Origin: a virus
IMG/VR virus record: IMGVR_UViG_3300046007_005090
Coordinates: 1-33,420 of that record
Length of the DNA stretch: 33,420 nucleotides
Strand: one strand, 5' to 3'
This document shows, piece by piece, positions 6,399-26,586 of this stretch. The position numbers and the translations under genes are program-made. Below the pieces are notes generated by a model. It did no database searches. It had not been told where the DNA came from and was given only the letters and a program-made list of their open reading frames with translations. Positions within the stretch are counted from its first letter, which is position 1. Each line of letters starts with the position of its first letter.

Positions 6399-7073
6399 AT
6401 GAGATTGACAGTATGTGTTCTTTATGAAGATAATGATAATTTAGTAAGATGGCGTAAAGCATTGCCGATTGATAACGTGCAAGTAATTGCATTGAAAACA
6501 AACTACGATGATAAATTAACAGAACCGACACTTGAAGAAGTTGGCGTGACTCCAAATCTTGTGGCGTTGCAATGGAATTACAATGATTTTGAAGAACAAT
6601 TTGACTTTAGCTATTTGCGTAATAAATGCGACGAGTACGCACAAGGCGATTGGATCCTACACATTGATTCAGATGAATACTTAACGACGCCTCACGTCGA
6701 TTTATGGGCGTTTCTTGATGCTTTAGACGATACGGACGCCGTGGCTGGTTACGTTACAATTTATGGATTGCAAAATCAAAAAGAAAAATTAAGAATGCGA
6801 TATGCTTTTCAAAACATGAGACTCCATAAAAGGTCGGCTGGTTTGAAGTGGAGCGGTATATGTCATGAAACAATTGATTCAGACGCACATAAACATACGT
6901 GGGCGGACACTGAAATCATGCTTTATCATGAAGGCTATATGATTGATGAAGAAGACTATCAAAAAAAATGTGAAAGGAATGCGAAGTTATTGATAAGAGA
7001 GTACACAAGAGAAAAAAACAAAAGAAATTGGAATTATCTAATAAAAACCTTTTCATCTATTAAACAAGGATAA
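6399..7073 (+). CDS. GT2-type glycosyltransferase embedded in the head-tail operon
   Basis: This 224-residue protein looks like a short GT-A fold glycosyltransferase of the GT2 type. It starts with a beta strand (MRLTVCVLYED), has LRNKCDEYAQGDWILHIDSDE (residues 73-93) with the metal-binding D-S-D at 90-92, and continues to RLHKRSAGLKWSGICHETI, the usual acceptor-side region with WSG...HE. The soluble protein should transfer a sugar from a nucleotide-sugar donor. It begins one base after the preceding stop and ends four bases before the major tail gene, so it is made with virion proteins. I infer that it may decorate a capsid or tail protein; the acceptor is unknown. Confidence 0.82.
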   Translation: MRLTVCVLYEDNDNLVRWRKALPIDNVQVIALKTNYDDKLTEPTLEEVGVTPNLVALQWNYNDFEEQFDFSYLRNKCDEYAQGDWILHIDSDEYLTTPHVDLWAFLDALDDTDAVAGYVTIYGLQNQKEKLRMRYAFQNMRLHKRSAGLKWSGICHETIDSDAHKHTWADTEIMLYHEGYMIDEEDYQKKCERNAKLLIREYTREKNKRNWNYLIKTFSSIKQG

Positions 7074-7077
7074 TATC

Positions 7078-7638
7078 ATGGCAGTTATAGGCGGCGGAAA
7101 TCTGTCTGTATTTTTTACAGCAGACGAAACAACAGGCCTTATAGGCTCAACAAAATTAGCAACTTTCACAAAGAAAGTTAAAACAAGTGTTTCAAGAACA
7201 AACTTCACACTAGATCAAAACGAAGACAGTCCAGATTTGACAGCGTTTTTTGATTCATATGCTCCAGTTCAACAGGCAACTAATGATTCTGGCGAATATG
7301 AAGACGGTGTAAAGTTCAATTCAGCAACAGCAAACAGTCAAACACTTTTACAAATTGTGTACGGTGGCAAACTTGCGGATTCAGGAAGTGGTAACACAAC
7401 AAAGCGTAAAGTAGTATTAATGCTTTGTAAATTAGCACAAGATACAGGTTCATTTGATATGGAATCTGGTAAATATACAAAGCCAAAAGTTTCTGGCGAA
7501 GTTGTAAACAATGATGCTTTAGTGACTGTTGGAACTTTAGTATTTGATACTAGTATGCTAATTGCTGCTTCTATTGCAACCGTGACAATTCCAGTCGACA
7601 CAGGTTACAAAGAAGTATGGATTGGATGTAATAAGTAA
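7078..7638 (+). CDS. Major tail (tube) protein, putative
   Basis: This 186-residue protein is rich in beta-forming residues and Thr/Ser/Gly, like major tail proteins of siphoviruses. Its position, after the terminator-type gene and before the tail assembly chaperones, is where the tube gene always sits. A strong hairpin terminator follows it directly. Such terminators often follow abundant structural genes and lower expression of the genes behind. No motif is decisive; the call is based on order and composition. Confidence 0.75.
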   Translation: MAVIGGGNLSVFFTADETTGLIGSTKLATFTKKVKTSVSRTNFTLDQNEDSPDLTAFFDSYAPVQQATNDSGEYEDGVKFNSATANSQTLLQIVYGGKLADSGSGNTTKRKVVLMLCKLAQDTGSFDMESGKYTKPKVSGEVVNNDALVTVGTLVFDTSMLIAASIATVTIPVDTGYKEVWIGCNK

Positions 7639-7694: not shown

Positions 7695-8192
7695 ATGAAA
7701 TTTTATCTAAATGAAGAAGTTCACGAAGTGCCTTTATTCACAATCTTAACGCCCGCACTATTTGACAAAGTATCCCCTATGTTCCAAGAGCTTGCAAACA
7801 CTAAAGGCGCACAAGCGGCTGCAGAGCAAGAAATCATGGAAAAAGTATTCAGCGTTCCACACTTGCAAGAACAAATCGATTTAAGCAAGGGGACAAATGC
7901 TTTTACGGCAATTATGGGCGATTTTAGATTCCAAGAAATTGTAAAAGATGCTTACTTGAAAGTAAGACGTGACTTATTCGAGTGTATTAATGTAGATACA
8001 AGCACAATTCCTACAATATTTACACTTGTTAAAACCGTTGTGAACACTAAGAAAATTACAAATCCAGAATTATTAGCTGGCATTCAAAGCGAGATTGATT
8101 CAGAATTTTGGCAAAACCAAGATCTTGATGGTATTCTGGAGGAACTTAAGTTTTTTCGTTCGACAGTTTGCAAACGAATCCGAATTAGTTGA
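7695..8192 (+). CDS. Tail assembly chaperone, G-like (upstream frame)
   Basis: This 165-residue protein lies just before the tape-measure gene, where long-tailed phages encode G-type chaperones. It starts with MKFYLNEEVHEVPLFTILTPALFDKV, typical of small tail chaperones, and has a GGAG six bases before the ATG. Near its end the frame passes through a T6 run (8151-8156) and stops at 8192. The downstream frame carries on as an acidic continuation. This is the usual G/GT arrangement, in which the short form and a frameshifted long form are both made and bind the tape measure protein. Confidence 0.82.
   Translation: MKFYLNEEVHEVPLFTILTPALFDKVSPMFQELANTKGAQAAAEQEIMEKVFSVPHLQEQIDLSKGTNAFTAIMGDFRFQEIVKDAYLKVRRDLFECINVDTSTIPTIFTLVKTVVNTKKITNPELLAGIQSEIDSEFWQNQDLDGILEELKFFRSTVCKRIRIS
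8138..8159 (+). promoter_or_regulatory. Probable programmed frameshift site (T6 run with upstream GGAGGA)
   Basis: GGAGGA at 8138-8143 lies seven bases before TTTTTTCG (8151-8158). A UUU-reading tRNA-Phe that moves +1 would pair with UUC, its better codon, and enter the downstream frame. A -2 slip on the same run gives the same frame. An internal Shine-Dalgarno-like sequence stimulates slippage in some bacterial genes. The direction of the slip cannot be read from the DNA alone. Confidence 0.6.
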
Positions 8193-8454
8193 GTACTATC
8201 TTAGTGAACTAACTGTTTTCAATGATGCAGACGACAAGGAATTCGAAGAAGAAGAGAGCGAGGCCGAGCGATATTTGGAAAAGGATTTAATGAGTAAGTA
8301 TTTTATATTCAAAGGCGTTGCGAATGGCAACGTTGGAGAATTCATGAAGTTGTATTATGAAATCTCAAGACTCGATGTAATTCAAATGTACGCCTTCAAT
8401 ATCACGTACAAAAAAGAACAATATAACGCGGAGCGCCGACGCCATGGCAGATGA
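8158..8454 (+). CDS. Tail assembly chaperone, T-like part made by frameshift (G-T fusion)
   Basis: This frame has no credible start of its own. Upstream of 8150 it is a shadow of the G-like gene, and the next ATG (8290) would cut off much of it. The G frame reads TTT TTT CGT at 8151-8159. The T frame reads TTT TTC GTT from 8152. A +1 slip (or -2 slip) on the T6 run joins them. With a +1 slip after the second TTT the fusion would be 252 residues: 154 from G plus 98 from this frame. The T part is very acidic (EFEEEESEAERYLEKD) and overlaps the tape measure start by 11 bases. Confidence 0.75.
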   Translation, partial: VRQFANESELVEYYLSELTVFNDADDKEFEEEESEAERYLEKDLMSKYFIFKGVANGNVGEFMKLYYEISRLDVIQMYAFNITYKKEQYNAERRRHGR

Positions 8455-11400
8455 TATAAAAGTAAAACTTGGGCTTGATGTAGGAGAATTTTTCAATGGT
8501 CTGAATAAAGTCACTACCGAACTTAATCAAATGCAAAATGAGTCCAAACAGACTGAACAAGCATTTGATAAAATGGTTGATATAGATACAGCTGGAGCCG
8601 TTGCAGATGTAAACAAGCTATCTACGGCAATTGATGACGTTGGTGATTCTGCAGGCGGTCTTAGTGGCGTATTTGAAGGCCTAAAAGGCGGTATAGGTGA
8701 TGCTCTTAGTGGTGGCTTGATTGGAGGGCTTGTAGGTGGTGGTTTAGCCGCTGGGATTGGTGCAATTGCCGATGGCTTTAGTTCAGTTATTGAGAGCGGG
8801 CGTGAATTAGTTGGAGCGCAAGGTGATTTACAAGCGGCGACAGGAGCTTCTGGTGCTGAATTTGAACAATTAAAGAAAAGTGCTGAAGATGCCTTTTTAG
8901 GTGGCGTTGGTGGAAGTCTTGCAGAAGCTACAAAAGCTATCGCAAATGCTAAAATTGTTTTGAAAGATGCTTTGCCAAATGAAGAAATAGGAACTTTTGT
9001 TAAAAATGCACAAGCACTAGGAACACTTTACGATAAGGATGTAAATGAAGTTGTTTCAAAATCTGCTCCATTTATTAGGCAATTTGGTCTTGATGGTCAA
9101 AAAGCATTTAATCTTATTGCTTTTGCTTCTAAAGAAGGGAAAACATCTCAAGACGATGTTCTTGATACGCTTGCGGAATATTCACAATTATTAAGTGAAG
9201 CGGGTTTCAGTGCTGAAGAATTCGCTGGACAAATGGCAGTCGCTGGACAAGAAGGTCTTTTTAATACGGATAAAATTGCAGATTCTATCAAAGAAGCGCA
9301 AATCAGGCTCAAAGCTGGGGACACTGCAAAAGCAATAACTGATTTACAGGCTTCTTTGCCTAAAGCTTTAGGTTCAACATTCAAAGAATTAGAAGGGCTT
9401 GCTTCTTCTGGTCAAATTTCAATTAAAGAATTTTTGCAACGTTCTGGAGGTGCTATTGAAGAAGCGTTTAGTGCTGGACAAATTTCAGATTCCCTACGCT
9501 CGCAATTGCAAGTTGCAATTGCAGGCACTCCAGCCGAAGATCTTGGAGCAGAAGCATATGCAAGGATGTTTAGTGCTCCAATTCCAGCTGATCAAATAGC
9601 AGCAAAAGCACTTGAAGCAGGAAAACAAGCACAAAATGCAGCTGGGCAATATTTGACTTTTGATGCTTTTACAAAAAAATTAGAACTTGCTTTTCAGCTT
9701 GTTTCTCAAAATATTGTAATTGCTTTAGATGGCGTATTCAAAACTTTATCTCCTATTATAGAATTCGTTTCTAATAATTTAGGAACGATTGGAATAATAA
9801 TTGGAACAATCACGGCAGCTTTTGCTGCTTATAATATTGTTGTTGGTTTAGGCACTGCAATTACAACGGCATATGCAGCGGTTCAAACTGCTCTAGGAGG
9901 CTCAATTACTCTTACAACCGTAGCTCAATATGCATGGAACCTAGCATTAAGTCTAAATCCAGTTGGGGCAGTTGTAGCAGCAGTTGCGGTTTTAGGAGCT
10001 GGAATATATGCTCTTACAGATGCTTTAAGTGTTTCAGCGGAAGAAACTAGAGTGCAATCAGAAGAAAACGTCAAACTTATTGAAACGCAAAAAAAAGCAA
10101 ATGAAGAACAAACCACAATGACAAAAGGCACTAAGTCAATGGCGGATGAATTTCTTAATTTAGCTAATAAGAAAAAACTTACATCAGCAGAAAGTGCACG
10201 TCTTAAAGATTTGACAAAAGATTTAAGCAAAGAATATCCAGATTTAGTAAAAAACACAAAAGATTACAAAGATAATCTTGATGGAGTAGAAGCAATTGCT
10301 AATCGTGCTGGTAGCAGTTTGCAAAGTTTAGCAGCAGAATCAGCAAGATTAGATCAGGCTTTATTGCAAGCAAATCAGACATTAAGTTTCGCAAAAAGAA
10401 ATGAAGCTATTGAAGAAGCAATTAAAACAACTAAAACTCTAGGTGTTACTACTGACACATATGGAGCAAATGCAATAAATGCTTTTGCTAATGCTTTATA
10501 TGCTGCAAAAACACAAGAACAAGCAACGGATGCTTATACAAAAGCAACTAAAGAACTAGCAAGTAATAGCAAAGCACTAACAGCCGTTCAAAGTGCATAC
10601 AATTCTCAAATTGCAGCCTTAAATGCATATAAGAAAACAGCCGAAACAGTTGTGGATACTAACAAAAAACTTACAGACACTACAACAAAGCCAAAAAGCG
10701 AAGCAAAAGAGCAAGCAAGCGATCTTGAAAAATTAAAAGAATTTTATAAGGATAAGCAAGAAGCTCAAAAAAATGATATTGAGCGAGAACTTGCAGACGA
10801 AAAAAATAAGTATGCAGATAAAAAAGTTTTAAGGGCTAAATTAGAAGCAGAAGCAAACACTGAATTGAGAAAATTTCTTAATGAGAGAATTGGCGGTATT
10901 AGTGATGCAAATACATTTCTTAAAGAATCTCAACTGACTGTCAAGATAACTCCTAGCAAAGCAAAAGGAGAAACCGTTGAGGATATTAATACCTTCTATA
11001 CTCAAGAAATTGTAAAATTGAGAAAAGGACTTGAAGTTGAAACAAAATATAAAATAGATATACCAACGTTCAAAGAACAACTAAAAGAAGTTGAAACAAT
11101 TTCAAAAGATTTTGCAGCAACAGCTGAAAAGTTAGTTCCTATTACAATATCTGGATCAAGTGAAGAACTTGCTCGAGTTCAACAAGATGTACTCAACTTT
11201 CAAGAATTTTTGAAAACGCAAAACTTAGAAATTGCACAACTTCAACAAGAAGCGCAAATAGCAGGTAATGAAGAAGCAGCACAAAAATTTGCAGAGGCTA
11301 TAAATAAGAATGTTCAAAGTATTAACTTACTTGAAAGTAGAGTCAAAACTTTTGCCGAAAAAACCAAAGAAGCACAAAAACAAAATACCCTTGAATATCA

Positions 11401-12379
11401 AATCCAAACAGCATTGCAGACAAGTTTCTTAGATGTTTTTAATTCTGAAAAGATACGCAAAGAAAAAGAAACAAACGAAGCAATACGAAAGGAACGACTT
11501 GGAGCTTTAGATGTTGAAGAAAATGATCTAAACAAGTCACTTGCAAAACGTGAAATAAGCGCAGAAGAATACGCTACAAAACTTGCTGAAATAAACAACA
11601 ATCGTGCAGATGTGGAAAGCAAAACAAACAAAGGCACCCTTGATAGGTTCAAAGAAGTTGCGGATGCAACTGCAGCTAGTGTTCTTAAATCACAAGGCGA
11701 CATCTTCAAAAAGAATGCTGAAAAGATGGAAGGAAACGAAAAGGTATTTAATGAATTCGTTGGTAATACACTCAATCAGTTTAGCGTTTTAGCAGCAAGT
11801 GGGGAAGCAACTTTAGCAGACTTTGGAGCCGCCGCTGCAAGCGCTGCTTTTGATGCTGTGGCCGCAATGATCCCGTCTTTTGTGACTGGGATTCTAGGAA
11901 GTTCTATAACAACATTAGGGCCTATCTTAGGGCCTTTAGCAGCTGCTTCGCTTACAGGCGTTCTATATGGTTTATTAGGTCTTGCAAGAAGCGCCGCTGG
12001 ATTCAAAGATGGTGTTGTAGGCTTAGATGGTGCAGGCACAGAAACAAGCGATTCTATACCCGCATGGCTTTCACGTGGTGAATCTGTAATTACAGCTCGT
12101 GCAACGAAAAACAACAAAGAAGAACTCGAATTCATGAATAGAACAGGCTTAAGCATTGCAGAGTTTTACAAAATGCGAATGCCGTCGACTTCTGTTAGCG
12201 TCACTCCAGATGGCGATTTGATTCGTGAAGTACGCAAATTACGTGAAGAAACTCGAGGTCTTGGCGTGCGCATTCAAAGAAACACAAGCGTAGAGGTATC
12301 TGGCGTGCTTACAGCGGATTCAAAAAGTATTAATGCACTGATTGTAGAACAAAAACGCCGTTCGGCTCGTAGAGGTTAA
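8444..12379 (+). CDS. Tape measure protein
   Basis: At 1311 residues this is the longest gene in the window. The tape measure protein sets tail length and fills the tube before DNA ejection. Residues about 88-110 are Gly-rich and hydrophobic, residues 447-478 and 505-525 contain membrane-type helices, and about 1140-1185 contain a further hydrophobic block. Between these the protein is Ala/Lys/Glu-rich and coiled-coil-like, with many EAQ/KEA repeats. At about 1.5 angstrom per residue the tail would be near 195 nm, an estimate from known phages. It follows the G/GT chaperone pair with an 11-base overlap. No peptidoglycan hydrolase domain is evident. Confidence 0.95.
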   Translation: MADDIKVKLGLDVGEFFNGLNKVTTELNQMQNESKQTEQAFDKMVDIDTAGAVADVNKLSTAIDDVGDSAGGLSGVFEGLKGGIGDALSGGLIGGLVGGGLAAGIGAIADGFSSVIESGRELVGAQGDLQAATGASGAEFEQLKKSAEDAFLGGVGGSLAEATKAIANAKIVLKDALPNEEIGTFVKNAQALGTLYDKDVNEVVSKSAPFIRQFGLDGQKAFNLIAFASKEGKTSQDDVLDTLAEYSQLLSEAGFSAEEFAGQMAVAGQEGLFNTDKIADSIKEAQIRLKAGDTAKAITDLQASLPKALGSTFKELEGLASSGQISIKEFLQRSGGAIEEAFSAGQISDSLRSQLQVAIAGTPAEDLGAEAYARMFSAPIPADQIAAKALEAGKQAQNAAGQYLTFDAFTKKLELAFQLVSQNIVIALDGVFKTLSPIIEFVSNNLGTIGIIIGTITAAFAAYNIVVGLGTAITTAYAAVQTALGGSITLTTVAQYAWNLALSLNPVGAVVAAVAVLGAGIYALTDALSVSAEETRVQSEENVKLIETQKKANEEQTTMTKGTKSMADEFLNLANKKKLTSAESARLKDLTKDLSKEYPDLVKNTKDYKDNLDGVEAIANRAGSSLQSLAAESARLDQALLQANQTLSFAKRNEAIEEAIKTTKTLGVTTDTYGANAINAFANALYAAKTQEQATDAYTKATKELASNSKALTAVQSAYNSQIAALNAYKKTAETVVDTNKKLTDTTTKPKSEAKEQASDLEKLKEFYKDKQEAQKNDIERELADEKNKYADKKVLRAKLEAEANTELRKFLNERIGGISDANTFLKESQLTVKITPSKAKGETVEDINTFYTQEIVKLRKGLEVETKYKIDIPTFKEQLKEVETISKDFAATAEKLVPITISGSSEELARVQQDVLNFQEFLKTQNLEIAQLQQEAQIAGNEEAAQKFAEAINKNVQSINLLESRVKTFAEKTKEAQKQNTLEYQIQTALQTSFLDVFNSEKIRKEKETNEAIRKERLGALDVEENDLNKSLAKREISAEEYATKLAEINNNRADVESKTNKGTLDRFKEVADATAASVLKSQGDIFKKNAEKMEGNEKVFNEFVGNTLNQFSVLAASGEATLADFGAAAASAAFDAVAAMIPSFVTGILGSSITTLGPILGPLAAASLTGVLYGLLGLARSAAGFKDGVVGLDGAGTETSDSIPAWLSRGESVITARATKNNKEELEFMNRTGLSIAEFYKMRMPSTSVSVTPDGDLIREVRKLREETRGLGVRIQRNTSVEVSGVLTADSKSINALIVEQKRRSARRG

Positions 12380-19683: not shown

Positions 19684-20120
19684 CACTAAGCGAGCAAATA
19701 AGAGAAGAACGAATGAAACTATTTGGAATTACCTATAAGCCAAAGCAAGACCGTGTAATAGGTGAAACTCCTGACATCATGAAAAAATACATTAAAGCAA
19801 AGAAACAATTTGACAAAGATCCAGACTTTGCAATAAATAAAATTACTAATTGGCTAGCTCAAGAAAAAAAAGTGCTTGTTGAAGATATCTACTCGAATAA
19901 ACGATATAGAAACTTAGCAGATGCAAGACATATCTTATTCTTTTTACTATATTTTACTTTGCCAGTTACACAATCATTCATAGGATTAAAATTCAATAAA
20001 CATCCGTCAAGTGTAGTTCATTCAATCTTAAAAGTGAAGGACGTTTTTATCAATTCACTTGATTTTCAAGCGTTTATTCAAGAATTTGAAAGTTTTTACT
20101 TTGATAGGGTGGCAAAATGA
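19680..20120 (+). CDS. DnaA domain IV-like DNA-binding protein
   Basis: The protein has 146 residues. Residues 76-118 read RYRNLADARHILFFLL...TQSFIGLKFNKHPSSVVHSILK, which match the DnaA C-terminal domain: an 'R-x-x-x-x-x-A-R' helix followed by 'I-G-x-x-F-x-x-x-H-x-x-V-x-x-x-x-x'. In DnaA this domain binds DnaA boxes. There is no ATPase domain, so this is a free-standing DNA binder, possibly a phage origin protein or a regulator that competes with host DnaA. It overlaps the primase-helicase start by four bases, consistent with a shared role. Confidence 0.75.
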   Translation: MTLSEQIREERMKLFGITYKPKQDRVIGETPDIMKKYIKAKKQFDKDPDFAINKITNWLAQEKKVLVEDIYSNKRYRNLADARHILFFLLYFTLPVTQSFIGLKFNKHPSSVVHSILKVKDVFINSLDFQAFIQEFESFYFDRVAK

Positions 20121-22303
20121 ACATTTCAGTATTCAAAGCAGCTCTGGATACGAATCCAGAAGTAAATATCTCTTTCTACACCTTTCTAGGCTATGTGAAA
20201 GACGGCCGCTGGCAAGATGAAGTGCTGGCCGTTCGCCTTGGTAAAAAGGACAAGAAAACAATGCCAGCCGTGACGCCATCTGGAACGTTTTCGAAAAGGC
20301 GGGCGGACTCTTTACAGCAGCATAGCAATATCCTTTGTGTAGATATCGACTTCAAAGATAATGAAGACGCCGATATAGAAGCGCTTAAGAATGATCCATA
20401 TACGTGGGCGGTTCACCGTTCTGTTGGTGGTCTTGGTTGGGTGGCATATTTCAAGATAGACGGCTCAAAACATCTTGAAGCATATCTCGGGCTTGAAAAA
20501 TATCTTGCTGATTATTACAAAGTAATTGCAGATAAGTCTTGCAAAGATGTTTCACGATTGAGAATAGTTTCATGGGATCCAGATTTATATCAAAAAGACC
20601 ATGAACCAAAGCAATTTAAGCTGTACATTAAAGATAAAACACAAGAAATCGAACGCAAGCCAGTAATTGCTACAAATGAAGACTATAAACATATCATAAA
20701 ACAGATTCAAGACAAGAAAATCGATCTTACTAACAATAGCCACCATGATTGGATTCAGATTGGTTATTCTTTGGCAAATGGACTAGGAGAGCAAGGGCGC
20801 GAACTTTATCACGCTGTAAGCTCTATAAGCCCTAAATATGACGAATTGCAAACAGATGCGAAGTACAATTTGCTTATTAAGAACAAAAACGGCTCTGTAA
20901 GTCTTAATACGTTCTTTTATCTATGCTCACAAGCTGGAATTGAAACACAAACAGATACAACACGCAAAATTATCAATCTTACACAACTTGCAAAGTCACG
21001 AGATAGCCAAAACGCAGAGCAAGCCAAGGCTTCAACTCTGAAACTACTTGAACAACAAGGGATTAAAGGCCCTGAAATCGTTGCAACTGTTGACAAAGCC
21101 TTTGATCTCGATATAAAGACAAAAAAAGCACAAAAAAGCTCTGGAGAAATAGAATCTATTAAGTTAATGCTGAAAAGTTATGATCTAAGGTTCAATCTTG
21201 TTACGCAAAACATGGAAATCGACGGCCGTAACTTTACAGACCGTGAATTCAATAACATTTTTATTCAGTTACGTGAGCAATTAGGTAACACCGTTCAATC
21301 GCAAATAGTTAATAGCATAATTGATAGCGATAATACGCAAAGCTTCAATCCTTTTACTGAATATTTGAAAGAATGCCGTGACATCAAAACAAGCGGCCAT
21401 ATTACAAGGCTATGCGAAGCGATTCAGTACAAAGAAAGCAAGTATATGACGCCCGCAACGCTTGAAAACTATGTCAAAAAATGGCTTCTTGGAATCATTG
21501 CTTCAATGCACGGTACTCACTCTGTTACTATTTTAGTTCTTTGCGGCGGGCAAGGCATAGGGAAAACGAATTTCTTTAGAAAGTTACTCCCTGAAAAGCT
21601 ACGCAGCTACTATGCTGAATCTAAACTTGATCTTGGCAAAGATGATCTGATCTTGATGTGTAATAAGCTGATAATATGCGACGATGAGTTTGGTGGCAAG
21701 TCCAAAAAAGAAGAAAAACTACTCAAAGAGCTAAGTTCAAAGCAAATCTTTTCAGTTAGACCACCATATCAAAAAAGAAATATTGATATGCAACGCTATG
21801 CAGTTCTTTGCGGTACTTCTAATGATTCTCAACTACTTAACGACTTGACAGGCAATAGAAGGATCATTCCGATTGATATTACTGGAATTGATTGGGATTT
21901 GTATAATTCAATCGATAAAGACCTACTTTTTGCGGAGCTTTATAATGAATATATATCATGTGGCAAAGAATGGCAGTTGAATTCTTTGGATATTTCCATC
22001 TTAAATGAACTCACATACGCAAATCGTTCCATTTGTATTGAAGAAGAATTACTGATTCAATATTTCAAAGAACCAGAAGCAAAATACTCCGAATGGCTAA
22101 CAAATACCCAAATTTTGAACATTATTAGCCAAGATACTAACCAAAGACTAACATCTCACAAATTAGGCCAAGTCCTTAAAAATTATGGATATAGAAAGGA
22201 ATACAAATCCATAAATGGGAAAACTTCTGGCGTATGGTGGGTATGCAAACGCAATGATCTTGAACCAACGTTTACTATTACAGATATTACAGATATTATG
22301 TAA
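20117..22303 (+). CDS. Primase-helicase, BT4734 / VirE type
   Basis: The protein has 728 residues. Residues 1-160 resemble the BT4734-like primase-polymerase domain, with LCVDIDF (D76, D78), H100 in AVHRSVGGLG and D154 in VSWD as likely catalytic residues. Residues about 195-285 look like a primase C-terminal (PriCT) domain. The C-terminal half is a VirE-type SF3 helicase: Walker A GGQGIGKT (477-484), Walker B CDDE (521-524), the GTSN motif and GNRRIIPIDI sensor. It should prime and unwind DNA for phage replication; such single-polypeptide enzymes are common in Bacteroidota elements. The C-terminus ends ITDITDIM, encoded by a tandem 9-bp repeat. Confidence 0.88.
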   Translation: MNISVFKAALDTNPEVNISFYTFLGYVKDGRWQDEVLAVRLGKKDKKTMPAVTPSGTFSKRRADSLQQHSNILCVDIDFKDNEDADIEALKNDPYTWAVHRSVGGLGWVAYFKIDGSKHLEAYLGLEKYLADYYKVIADKSCKDVSRLRIVSWDPDLYQKDHEPKQFKLYIKDKTQEIERKPVIATNEDYKHIIKQIQDKKIDLTNNSHHDWIQIGYSLANGLGEQGRELYHAVSSISPKYDELQTDAKYNLLIKNKNGSVSLNTFFYLCSQAGIETQTDTTRKIINLTQLAKSRDSQNAEQAKASTLKLLEQQGIKGPEIVATVDKAFDLDIKTKKAQKSSGEIESIKLMLKSYDLRFNLVTQNMEIDGRNFTDREFNNIFIQLREQLGNTVQSQIVNSIIDSDNTQSFNPFTEYLKECRDIKTSGHITRLCEAIQYKESKYMTPATLENYVKKWLLGIIASMHGTHSVTILVLCGGQGIGKTNFFRKLLPEKLRSYYAESKLDLGKDDLILMCNKLIICDDEFGGKSKKEEKLLKELSSKQIFSVRPPYQKRNIDMQRYAVLCGTSNDSQLLNDLTGNRRIIPIDITGIDWDLYNSIDKDLLFAELYNEYISCGKEWQLNSLDISILNELTYANRSICIEEELLIQYFKEPEAKYSEWLTNTQILNIISQDTNQRLTSHKLGQVLKNYGYRKEYKSINGKTSGVWWVCKRNDLEPTFTITDITDIM

Positions 22304-25737: not shown

Positions 25738-25969
25738 CGAGTCGCCTTTCTTTGATTGGCGAAGTTACAAAGACGGTTGCAAAGCTAGTATTTTTTATAA
25801 TGGCGTGCAATCGTTTTGCGTTTTATTACCTTATGACAATGGTTGGAAGTTCACTATCTACGATATGCAAGGCAAAGGCTTAATTAAGTACAGATTCAGA
25901 AATTGCACTTTGCAAGAAGCACAAGGCAAAGCGGAATTTTACGCAATGAGTGAGGACGAATGCAATTAG
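25715..25969 (+). CDS. Hypothetical 84-aa protein
   Basis: This is an 84-residue protein with a beta-rich middle (SIFYNGVQSFCVLLPYDNGWKFTIYDMQGKG) and a helical end (TLQEAQGKAEFYAMSEDE). No family is recognised. It overlaps the previous gene by 23 bases and the next by 10 bases in other frames, which is consistent with a tightly packed operon and supports its being real. Confidence 0.6.
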   Translation: MPKIYHFNESPFFDWRSYKDGCKASIFYNGVQSFCVLLPYDNGWKFTIYDMQGKGLIKYRFRNCTLQEAQGKAEFYAMSEDECN

Positions 25970-26586
25970 CAATCATAGTGCCTTTTAGAGATAGGCACGA
26001 GCACGCAAAAGAGTTTATTCCGTACATGAGTACCTACTTGACTATGCAAGGTCACGACTTTCATATCTTGATAGTTGAACAAGAACCTGGTTTGCCGTTC
26101 AATCGTGGCAAACTTTGTAATATAGGCTATAATTCAATTGAAGCGGATTATTACGTATTCCATGATATTGATATGCTACCTATCACAGCGGATTATTCGC
26201 CATGCTTAAGCCCGACTCACTTAGTTGCAAGCGCAACGCAATTCGAGGACGGTATTCCATATGAAACCTATTTCGGTGGCGTTACGATGTTCCCAAATGC
26301 TGACTTCATGAGAGTAAACGGATTTTCTAATGAGTTCTGGGGATGGGGTTCTGAAGATGATGACTTGATAAAAAGATGTGCAAATGAAAAACTAGTGATC
26401 ACAAGACGTGAGGGCGGTACATTCAAAAGTCTTGATCATGCAATAAATATAGATTCAACACTTGCAAAGGCTAACTGGGAACGCTATGCAAAAGGCACAA
26501 GCGACGGTTTAACAACATTAAAATTCACTCCTTTATATAAAAAGATCTTGACTTCTAAAGTCTCAATTTTACACGTATCAATTTAA
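25960..26586 (+). CDS. Beta-1,4-galactosyltransferase-like enzyme (GT7)
   Basis: The 208-residue protein carries the hallmarks of the GT7 family, best known from animal beta-4-galactosyltransferases. FNRGKLCNIGY (48-57) is followed by FHDIDMLP (68-74) with the metal-binding D-x-D, YFGGVTMF (104-111), NGFSNEFWGWGSEDDDL (120-136) and a late His160. The last motif is the donor/acceptor site. There is no membrane anchor. It probably adds a hexose to phage or host glycans. It lies at the border between the replication module and the lysis genes. Confidence 0.85.
   Translation: MQLAIIVPFRDRHEHAKEFIPYMSTYLTMQGHDFHILIVEQEPGLPFNRGKLCNIGYNSIEADYYVFHDIDMLPITADYSPCLSPTHLVASATQFEDGIPYETYFGGVTMFPNADFMRVNGFSNEFWGWGSEDDDLIKRCANEKLVITRREGGTFKSLDHAINIDSTLAKANWERYAKGTSDGLTTLKFTPLYKKILTSKVSILHVSI

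Follow-up and report, generated by a model that had tools for sequence, protein, structure and literature searches.

The question raised by this locus is how an open reading frame lying behind a gene, and out of frame with it, comes to be translated. The window (the whole stretch of 33,420 nucleotides analysed here, positions 1 to 33,420 of IMG/VR virus record IMGVR_UViG_3300046007_005090) contains a gene, G, that ends shortly after a run of six T, and an open reading frame ending at 8454 that is shifted by +1 relative to G and runs past the ATG of the tape measure gene at 8444 (Table 1). At 8151-8159 the window reads TTTTTTCGT, with the T6 run at 8151-8156 followed by C8157 and G8158, and the zero-frame codons near the end of G are CTT AAG TTT TTT CGT TCG. 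A sequence-only reading of this DNA had described the downstream frame as +1 at the T6 run, with GGAGGA seven bases upstream, and both details are exact. It had also proposed that G and the following region, T, form a tail-chaperone pair, and this is borne out by the gene order and by the coding character of the +1 frame. The order tube, G, T, tape measure is kept in 12/12 loci compared, and in all 12 relatives examined a homologue of the putative tube gene (57-97% identity) adjoins G upstream. Overlapping open reading frames between the tube and tape measure genes are the layout expected of a G/GT pair, the tube gene being assigned here by position; its product has no PHROG match and no Pfam match above the cut-off.

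Table 1. Features of the chaperone locus, in coordinates of the window.
Feature	Coordinates	Strand	Remarks
Putative major tail (tube) protein gene	7078..7638	+	Inferred from position and size only; directly before G
Gene G, tail assembly chaperone, 165 aa, zero frame	7695..8192	+	Stop TGA 8190-8192
GGAGGA, Shine-Dalgarno-like	8138..8143	+	7 bases (8144-8150) before T6; not conserved
Slippery site TTT TTT CGT = F153 F154 R155 (zero frame)	8151..8159	+	TTTTTTCG invariant, ninth base T or C across the family
T region, +1 frame, 98 post-shift codons + stop	8158..8454	+	Periodicity of changes 368/256/897
GT fusion (predicted product)	join(7695..8156,8158..8454)	+	252 aa if +1; junction translated for +1
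GT fusion, -2 version (predicted product)	join(7695..8156,8155..8454)	+	253 aa
Tape measure protein gene	8444..12379	+	PHROG 1272, 5755, 58, 28 (tail length tape measure)

Other genes of the window are recorded here as separate observations. A family 2 glycosyltransferase gene (PF13704, E 2.5e-7) lies at 6399-7073, within the structural module and directly before the putative tube gene, and is found in the same place in 12/12 relatives compared (40-96% identity). A group 7 galactosyltransferase-like gene (PF02709, E 1e-23) lies at 25960-26586. The portal open reading frame at 95-2113 (672 aa) matches portal families, and its C-terminal third matches head morphogenesis families, so that it is apparently a fusion of portal and minor head protein.

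The +1 frame behind G evolves as coding sequence. Changes after the G stop fall on positions 1, 2 and 3 of +1-frame codons in the ratio 368/256/897, a periodicity similar to that of G in its own frame (704/395/1716). Among the 65 distinct junctions described below, a stop five bases before the T6 run closes the +1 frame in 27, and the change of frame must therefore take place at or after the slip site. T is thus coded in the shifted frame and has no conserved start of its own, as is typical of a G/GT pair.

The slip site was followed through several partly overlapping sets of relatives, which share contigs. All members of a first set (29 loci with 59-99% identity to G, together with the window) carry TTT TTT CGT (30/30). 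A second set, from a profile scan (58 loci and the window), gave complete junctions in 56/59, the other three running off their contigs, and all 56 read TTTTTTCGT. A capsid-based scan, from which 80 of 141 relatives were kept, yielded with the window 41 sequences with a G match and 40 without; two of the 41 run off the contig and the remaining 39/39 have the same site. A T-profile scan and further scans reached T relatives down to 31% identity, and the new contigs have this site too, with CGC instead of CGT in two of them. The pool of 237 overlapping loci was reduced to 65 distinct 270-nt junctions, four loci with fewer than 150 nt after the site, all four reading TTTTTTCGT, being left out. 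Every one of the 65, a pool selected for FFR at the protein level, carries TTTTTTCG in the same frame, 62 as TTTTTTCGT (CGT) and 3 as TTTTTTCGC (CGC). The motif SEFW..QD without a following FFR was seen only in L080 and L154, which are from the same contig, and in L080 the contig stops before G is complete. IMG/VR was scanned with the protein motif EFWxxQD-x9-FFR, with all codons allowed and T6 not required. Although Phe-Phe-Arg has 24 possible spellings, all 72 matches, many of them on contigs also present in the earlier scans, have TTTTTTCG[T/C] with an open +1 frame (70 TTTTTTCGT, 2 TTTTTTCGC). An in-frame UUU_CGN with a +1 downstream reading frame, the arrangement known from influenza PA-X, is thus present in 65/65 junctions and 72/72 matches.

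The most divergent example is L236 (2463-3060 of JAKPDK010000097.1), a phage-like 8.5-kb contig binned with a Candidatus Hydrogenedentota metagenome-assembled genome (MAG). Its G is shorter (121 aa), 25% identical to that of L233 and about 30% identical to window G over 81 residues, and its site, AGA TTT TTT CGC ACG (TTTTTTCGC), is followed by an open +1 frame. BLAST gave no match between T of this contig and window T. In L268 and L295, G is 67-68% identical to window G, T only 36-37%, with a second half that differs (the WTVYTWGAMAKPE stretch); L298, L303, L319, L338 and L343 are alike. Such sequences suggest that T either diverges quickly or has been exchanged, while the slip site before it stays the same.

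Conservation extends to the codons themselves. Apart from M and W, 24 columns keep their residue in at least 95% of the 65 sequences. Codon changes counted on a tree number 2-21 in 22 of these columns and zero in the other two, F153 and F154. Nine other Phe columns of G move back and forth between TTT and TTC, with a total of 62 changes in 455 cells. By this rate F153 and F154 should have about 8.9 changes each; the Poisson probability of none is about 1e-4 for each, or about 0.03, calculated by hand, if the slowest of the nine columns (3 changes in 54) sets the rate. In other open reading frames of relatives, Phe before CGN is spelled TTT in 20/43 cases, against 64% TTT overall, a mild effect. 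An apparent avoidance of TTT_CGN elsewhere in the window (one in-frame case) was set aside because Phe followed by CGN is itself equally rare there.

Taken together, these data are best explained by a G/GT tail-assembly-chaperone pair produced by programmed frameshifting on UUU_UUU_CGN, most likely through a +1 slip of the P-site tRNA-Phe, a reading to which we assign a probability of roughly 65%. We infer that the ribosome, rather than RNA polymerase, changes frame, and that it moves in the +1 direction. The majority of ribosomes would translate G through to its stop. In the remainder, while CGN waits in the A site and tRNA-Phe sits on the second UUU in the P site, this tRNA (anticodon GAA) would slip from UUU to the overlapping UUC, its fully cognate codon; the tRNA-Phe that holds the first UUU, in the E site, could likewise re-pair after the +1 move. 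The T domain would then be read in the +1 frame as a C-terminal extension of G, giving GT, and the ratio of short to long product would be set at this step. By analogy with lambda, G would coat the tape measure and the T domain would recruit the tail-tube subunit. Bacterial UUU_Ynn sequences are described as especially prone to +1 shifting (PMC5009743), and UUU_CGU is the +1 site of influenza PA-X, as established by mass spectrometry (PMC3498833). The tRNA-Phe slip from UUU to UUC had been thought plausible from the sequence, and it is supported here as a good mechanism; in that reading of the site, the frame, the T6CG sequence and the tRNA stood, but it had overlooked that CGN fills the A site, that UUU_CGN sites of this sort occur in influenza A virus, amalgaviruses and haloviruses, and how widely the site is spread. 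Several points count against the +1 explanation: the first Phe codon never varies at its wobble base, and a plain +1 slip that involves the second codon alone would not require this; the fusion is a predicted product; Mu, whose site has the same geometry, is reported as -2; CGT is not rare in the window; G, T and GT gave no significant match to a known chaperone; and T of the MAG contig has no match to window T by BLAST.

The first of these points bears on a second route to the same frame, a -2 slip at the same site, in which the P-site tRNA-Phe would move back two bases onto UUU and UUC would then be read, giving a GT of 253 aa with F-F-F-V at the junction. The sequence-only reading had named this route, with the junction residues that tell it from +1, and it is retained as an alternative that is unlikely but deserves serious weight. 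The first Phe codon is TTT in 65/65 with no synonymous change, which -2 needs and a single-tRNA +1 does not, and the invariant TTTTTT permits re-pairing two bases upstream, as at the Mu site. The chaperone gene of Mu, in the same place, has CGG GGG CGA, which in our own reading of its sequence allows perfect -2 re-pairing, and Mu is cited as a -2 case at about 2.2% (PMC3498833). However, bacterial UUU_Y sites are described as prone to +1 (PMC5009743), -2 is impossible at the haloviral UUU_CGC sites, a +1 move finds a fully cognate UUC in the unvarying C behind T6, and pairing in the E site would be lost in -2 and kept in +1.

Slippage of RNA polymerase at the T6 run, dropping one U or adding two so that some of the mRNA joins G and T, is improbable. 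A homopolymer run is indeed present and its length is invariant, but six T are short for efficient transcriptional slippage. The run is never longer than six in 65/65 (A, C or G before it, C after it), although a longer run would help, and the invariant CG after it, in a chosen codon phase, would be needless. More doubtful still is the translation of T alone from an internal start, with no fusion. Start-type codons in the T frame (ATG, GTG, TTG) do occur before the slip in 21/65 junctions and by position +30 in 57/65. The first of them is GTG at +7 in 30/65, ATG at -23 in 7 and ATG at +13 in 6, with others between, and lies 34-196 nt inside T in 8/65. However, none is conserved in place across the 65 junctions, the conserved +1 coding begins right at the slip site, and independent starts leave the two frozen Phe codons of G unexplained. 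The possibility that G and T are truly one continuous gene, broken by an indel that arose in the T run during sequencing or assembly, had been named as the finding that would undo the frameshift. We found no supporting point for it, and it is excluded by the same frame relation in 72/72 contigs, with no long -1 frame, and by the stop that closes the +1 frame just before the site in 27/65. The same observations exclude a -1 shift: in 72/72 motif-scan matches the +1 frame stays open until the contig stops or beyond 50 codons, and a -1 frame open beyond 50 codons occurs in 0/72, so that the -1 downstream reading frame of a canonical X_XXY_YYZ frameshift is absent.

Returning to the +1 slip, we looked for elements that might stimulate it. 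The GGAGGA of the window had been pointed out beside the site, but most relatives do without it: GGAGG or GGAG occurs within 20 nt upstream of the site in only 10/65 junctions. An internal Shine-Dalgarno of the prfB or dnaX type was rejected as a conserved element, although it may play some part in those 10. Pseudoknot-free folding of 25 diverse junctions gave mean z scores of -0.33 to -0.82 over four windows around the site. Since these lie between the two controls (+0.13 inside G, -1.09 inside T), they are not taken as evidence for a 3' stimulator. A rare codon in the A site as cause is unsupported in the window, where CGT is used 10.1 times per 1000 codons and is the second most used of the six Arg codons; because CGT is not rare there, a rare-codon stall is not evident. 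According to Atkins et al. (PMC5009743), certain tailed phages and influenza A virus seem to shift without stimulators, and the slip site described here agrees with such stimulator-free shifting.

That G and T work like a lambda-type G/GT pair is well supported by anatomy, because the position between tube and tape measure genes, the overlap and the C-terminal extension in a shifted frame all match those of lambda. G, T and GT have no PHROG match at E 0.05 and no Pfam family above the cut-off, and comparison of the G profile with the T profile gave no similarity. An AF2 model of G (mean pLDDT 91.5) has an N-terminal beta hairpin followed by helices; against BFVD it matches two uncharacterised phage proteins at E about 2e-4 and annotated chaperones only at E 0.7-4, and its fold has no PDB match at E 0.001, with only generic matches from PDB and VIA-align. 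Searches by tblastn with G of the window, L092 and L233 gave no close named phage. Neither MH319747 (a weak match) nor MT835660 (a tape-measure match) has such a chaperone pair, and the chaperone of Elizabethkingia TCUEAP2 is unrelated by hhalign.

As regards the host, the sole cellular match is the L236 contig binned as Candidatus Hydrogenedentota. The GT profile matched 0/68 genomes of that phylum, but it also missed G001, the genome that holds L236, so that this negative carries no information. The assignment of the window to a Bacteroidota-type phage, made earlier from its sequence, is not established. A VapE-like protein with a BT4734-like N-terminal (primase) domain is encoded at 20117-22303; this domain, which we take to be linked to Bacteroidota, is the only pointer to such a host, and a weak one.

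A large family of uncultured tailed phages thus appears to make a short and a long protein from one gene. Shifts into the +1 frame in tail chaperones are already known or proposed for Mu, HSTV-2 and the HF1 group, as is UUU_CGN in the HF1 group. As far as the literature searched can tell, what is new is a bacterial phage family with a T6CGN site, fixed across large divergence and linked to the Mu, halovirus and influenza sites; searches of the PMC open subset gave no published account in which a bacterial phage chaperone slips at TTTTTTCG. Lacking an accepted general motif, sites of +1 shifting are difficult to spot, and a site that has stayed fixed while the chaperone diverged to about 25% identity shows, as an alignment supplied by nature, which features a +1 (or -2) site requires. 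In practical terms, annotators can join G and T correctly in an uncultured group that PHROGs and Pfam miss.

Among known systems, the lambda-type G/GT pair resembles this family in gene position, in overlap and in an N-terminal G common to the short and long products, but differs in direction, shifting -1 on X_XXY_YYZ where here no long -1 frame is open (0/72). The view that -1 is commoner in phages, expressed in the sequence-only reading, agrees with PMC5009743 and with the SEA-PHAGES data, which contain 350 forward and 2368 backward sites (PMC10885494). T-rich heptamers have been given as putative -1 sites in SPP1 (UUUUUUC, gene 17.5) and in PaMx73 (T TTT TTC) (PMC6316719, PMC4378225). Mu, a phage with a contractile tail, is like this family in having a chaperone gene, gp41/T, before the tape measure gene and a homopolymer P-site codon followed by CGN. 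Its zero-frame codons lie in Mup41 (L352, 1458-1466), and the +1 frame is open there for 51 codons to the TAA at 1615-1617. It differs in that its run is of G rather than T and in that the shift was reported as -2 (PMC3498833).

Close parallels are the HF1-group haloviruses and HSTV-2, archaeal myoviruses which likewise have two chaperone coding sequences between tail tube and tape measure, the second in the +1 frame. A UUU_CGN +1 shift was proposed for the HF1-group chaperones in 2020 (PMC7230728), and that of HSTV-2 has been called very likely +1 (PMC5009743). Their sequences, which we checked, read AAG TCC TTT CGC AGA in HSTV-2 and GAG AAG TTT CGC AGA in HF2. The comparison is by site and gene order alone, and the codon before TTT is TCC or AAG in these viruses but TTT here; because TCC or AAG precedes TTT, these viruses lack both the T6 run and the -2 route. 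In Halorubrum TTT is a rare codon (PMC7230728), whereas in this window it is the common Phe codon. Influenza A PA-X and the plant amalgaviruses, in which UUU_CGN is prevalent (PMC5052127), share the frame phase of UUU_CGU or UUU_CGN and the movement of P-site tRNA-Phe from UUU to UUC, with no evident stimulator (PMC3498833, PMC5052127, PMC5009743). These are eukaryotic RNA viruses with unrelated genes, the E site of PA-X holds UCC where here it holds UUU, and the direction was shown in PA-X by mass spectrometry, whereas here it is predicted from sequence. Viewed beside the haloviruses, influenza and the amalgaviruses, the present family points to a shared decoding weakness at UUU_CGN. We would tentatively suggest, as an idea that may well prove wrong, that UUU_CGN is a minimal, stimulator-free +1 cassette adopted independently by viruses of bacteria, archaea and eukaryotes, in which the A-site CGN and not its rarity is the common active element (also after a homopolymer codon, in Mu), and which is doubled in this family to UUU_UUU_CGN so that the E-site and P-site tRNA-Phe can both re-pair.
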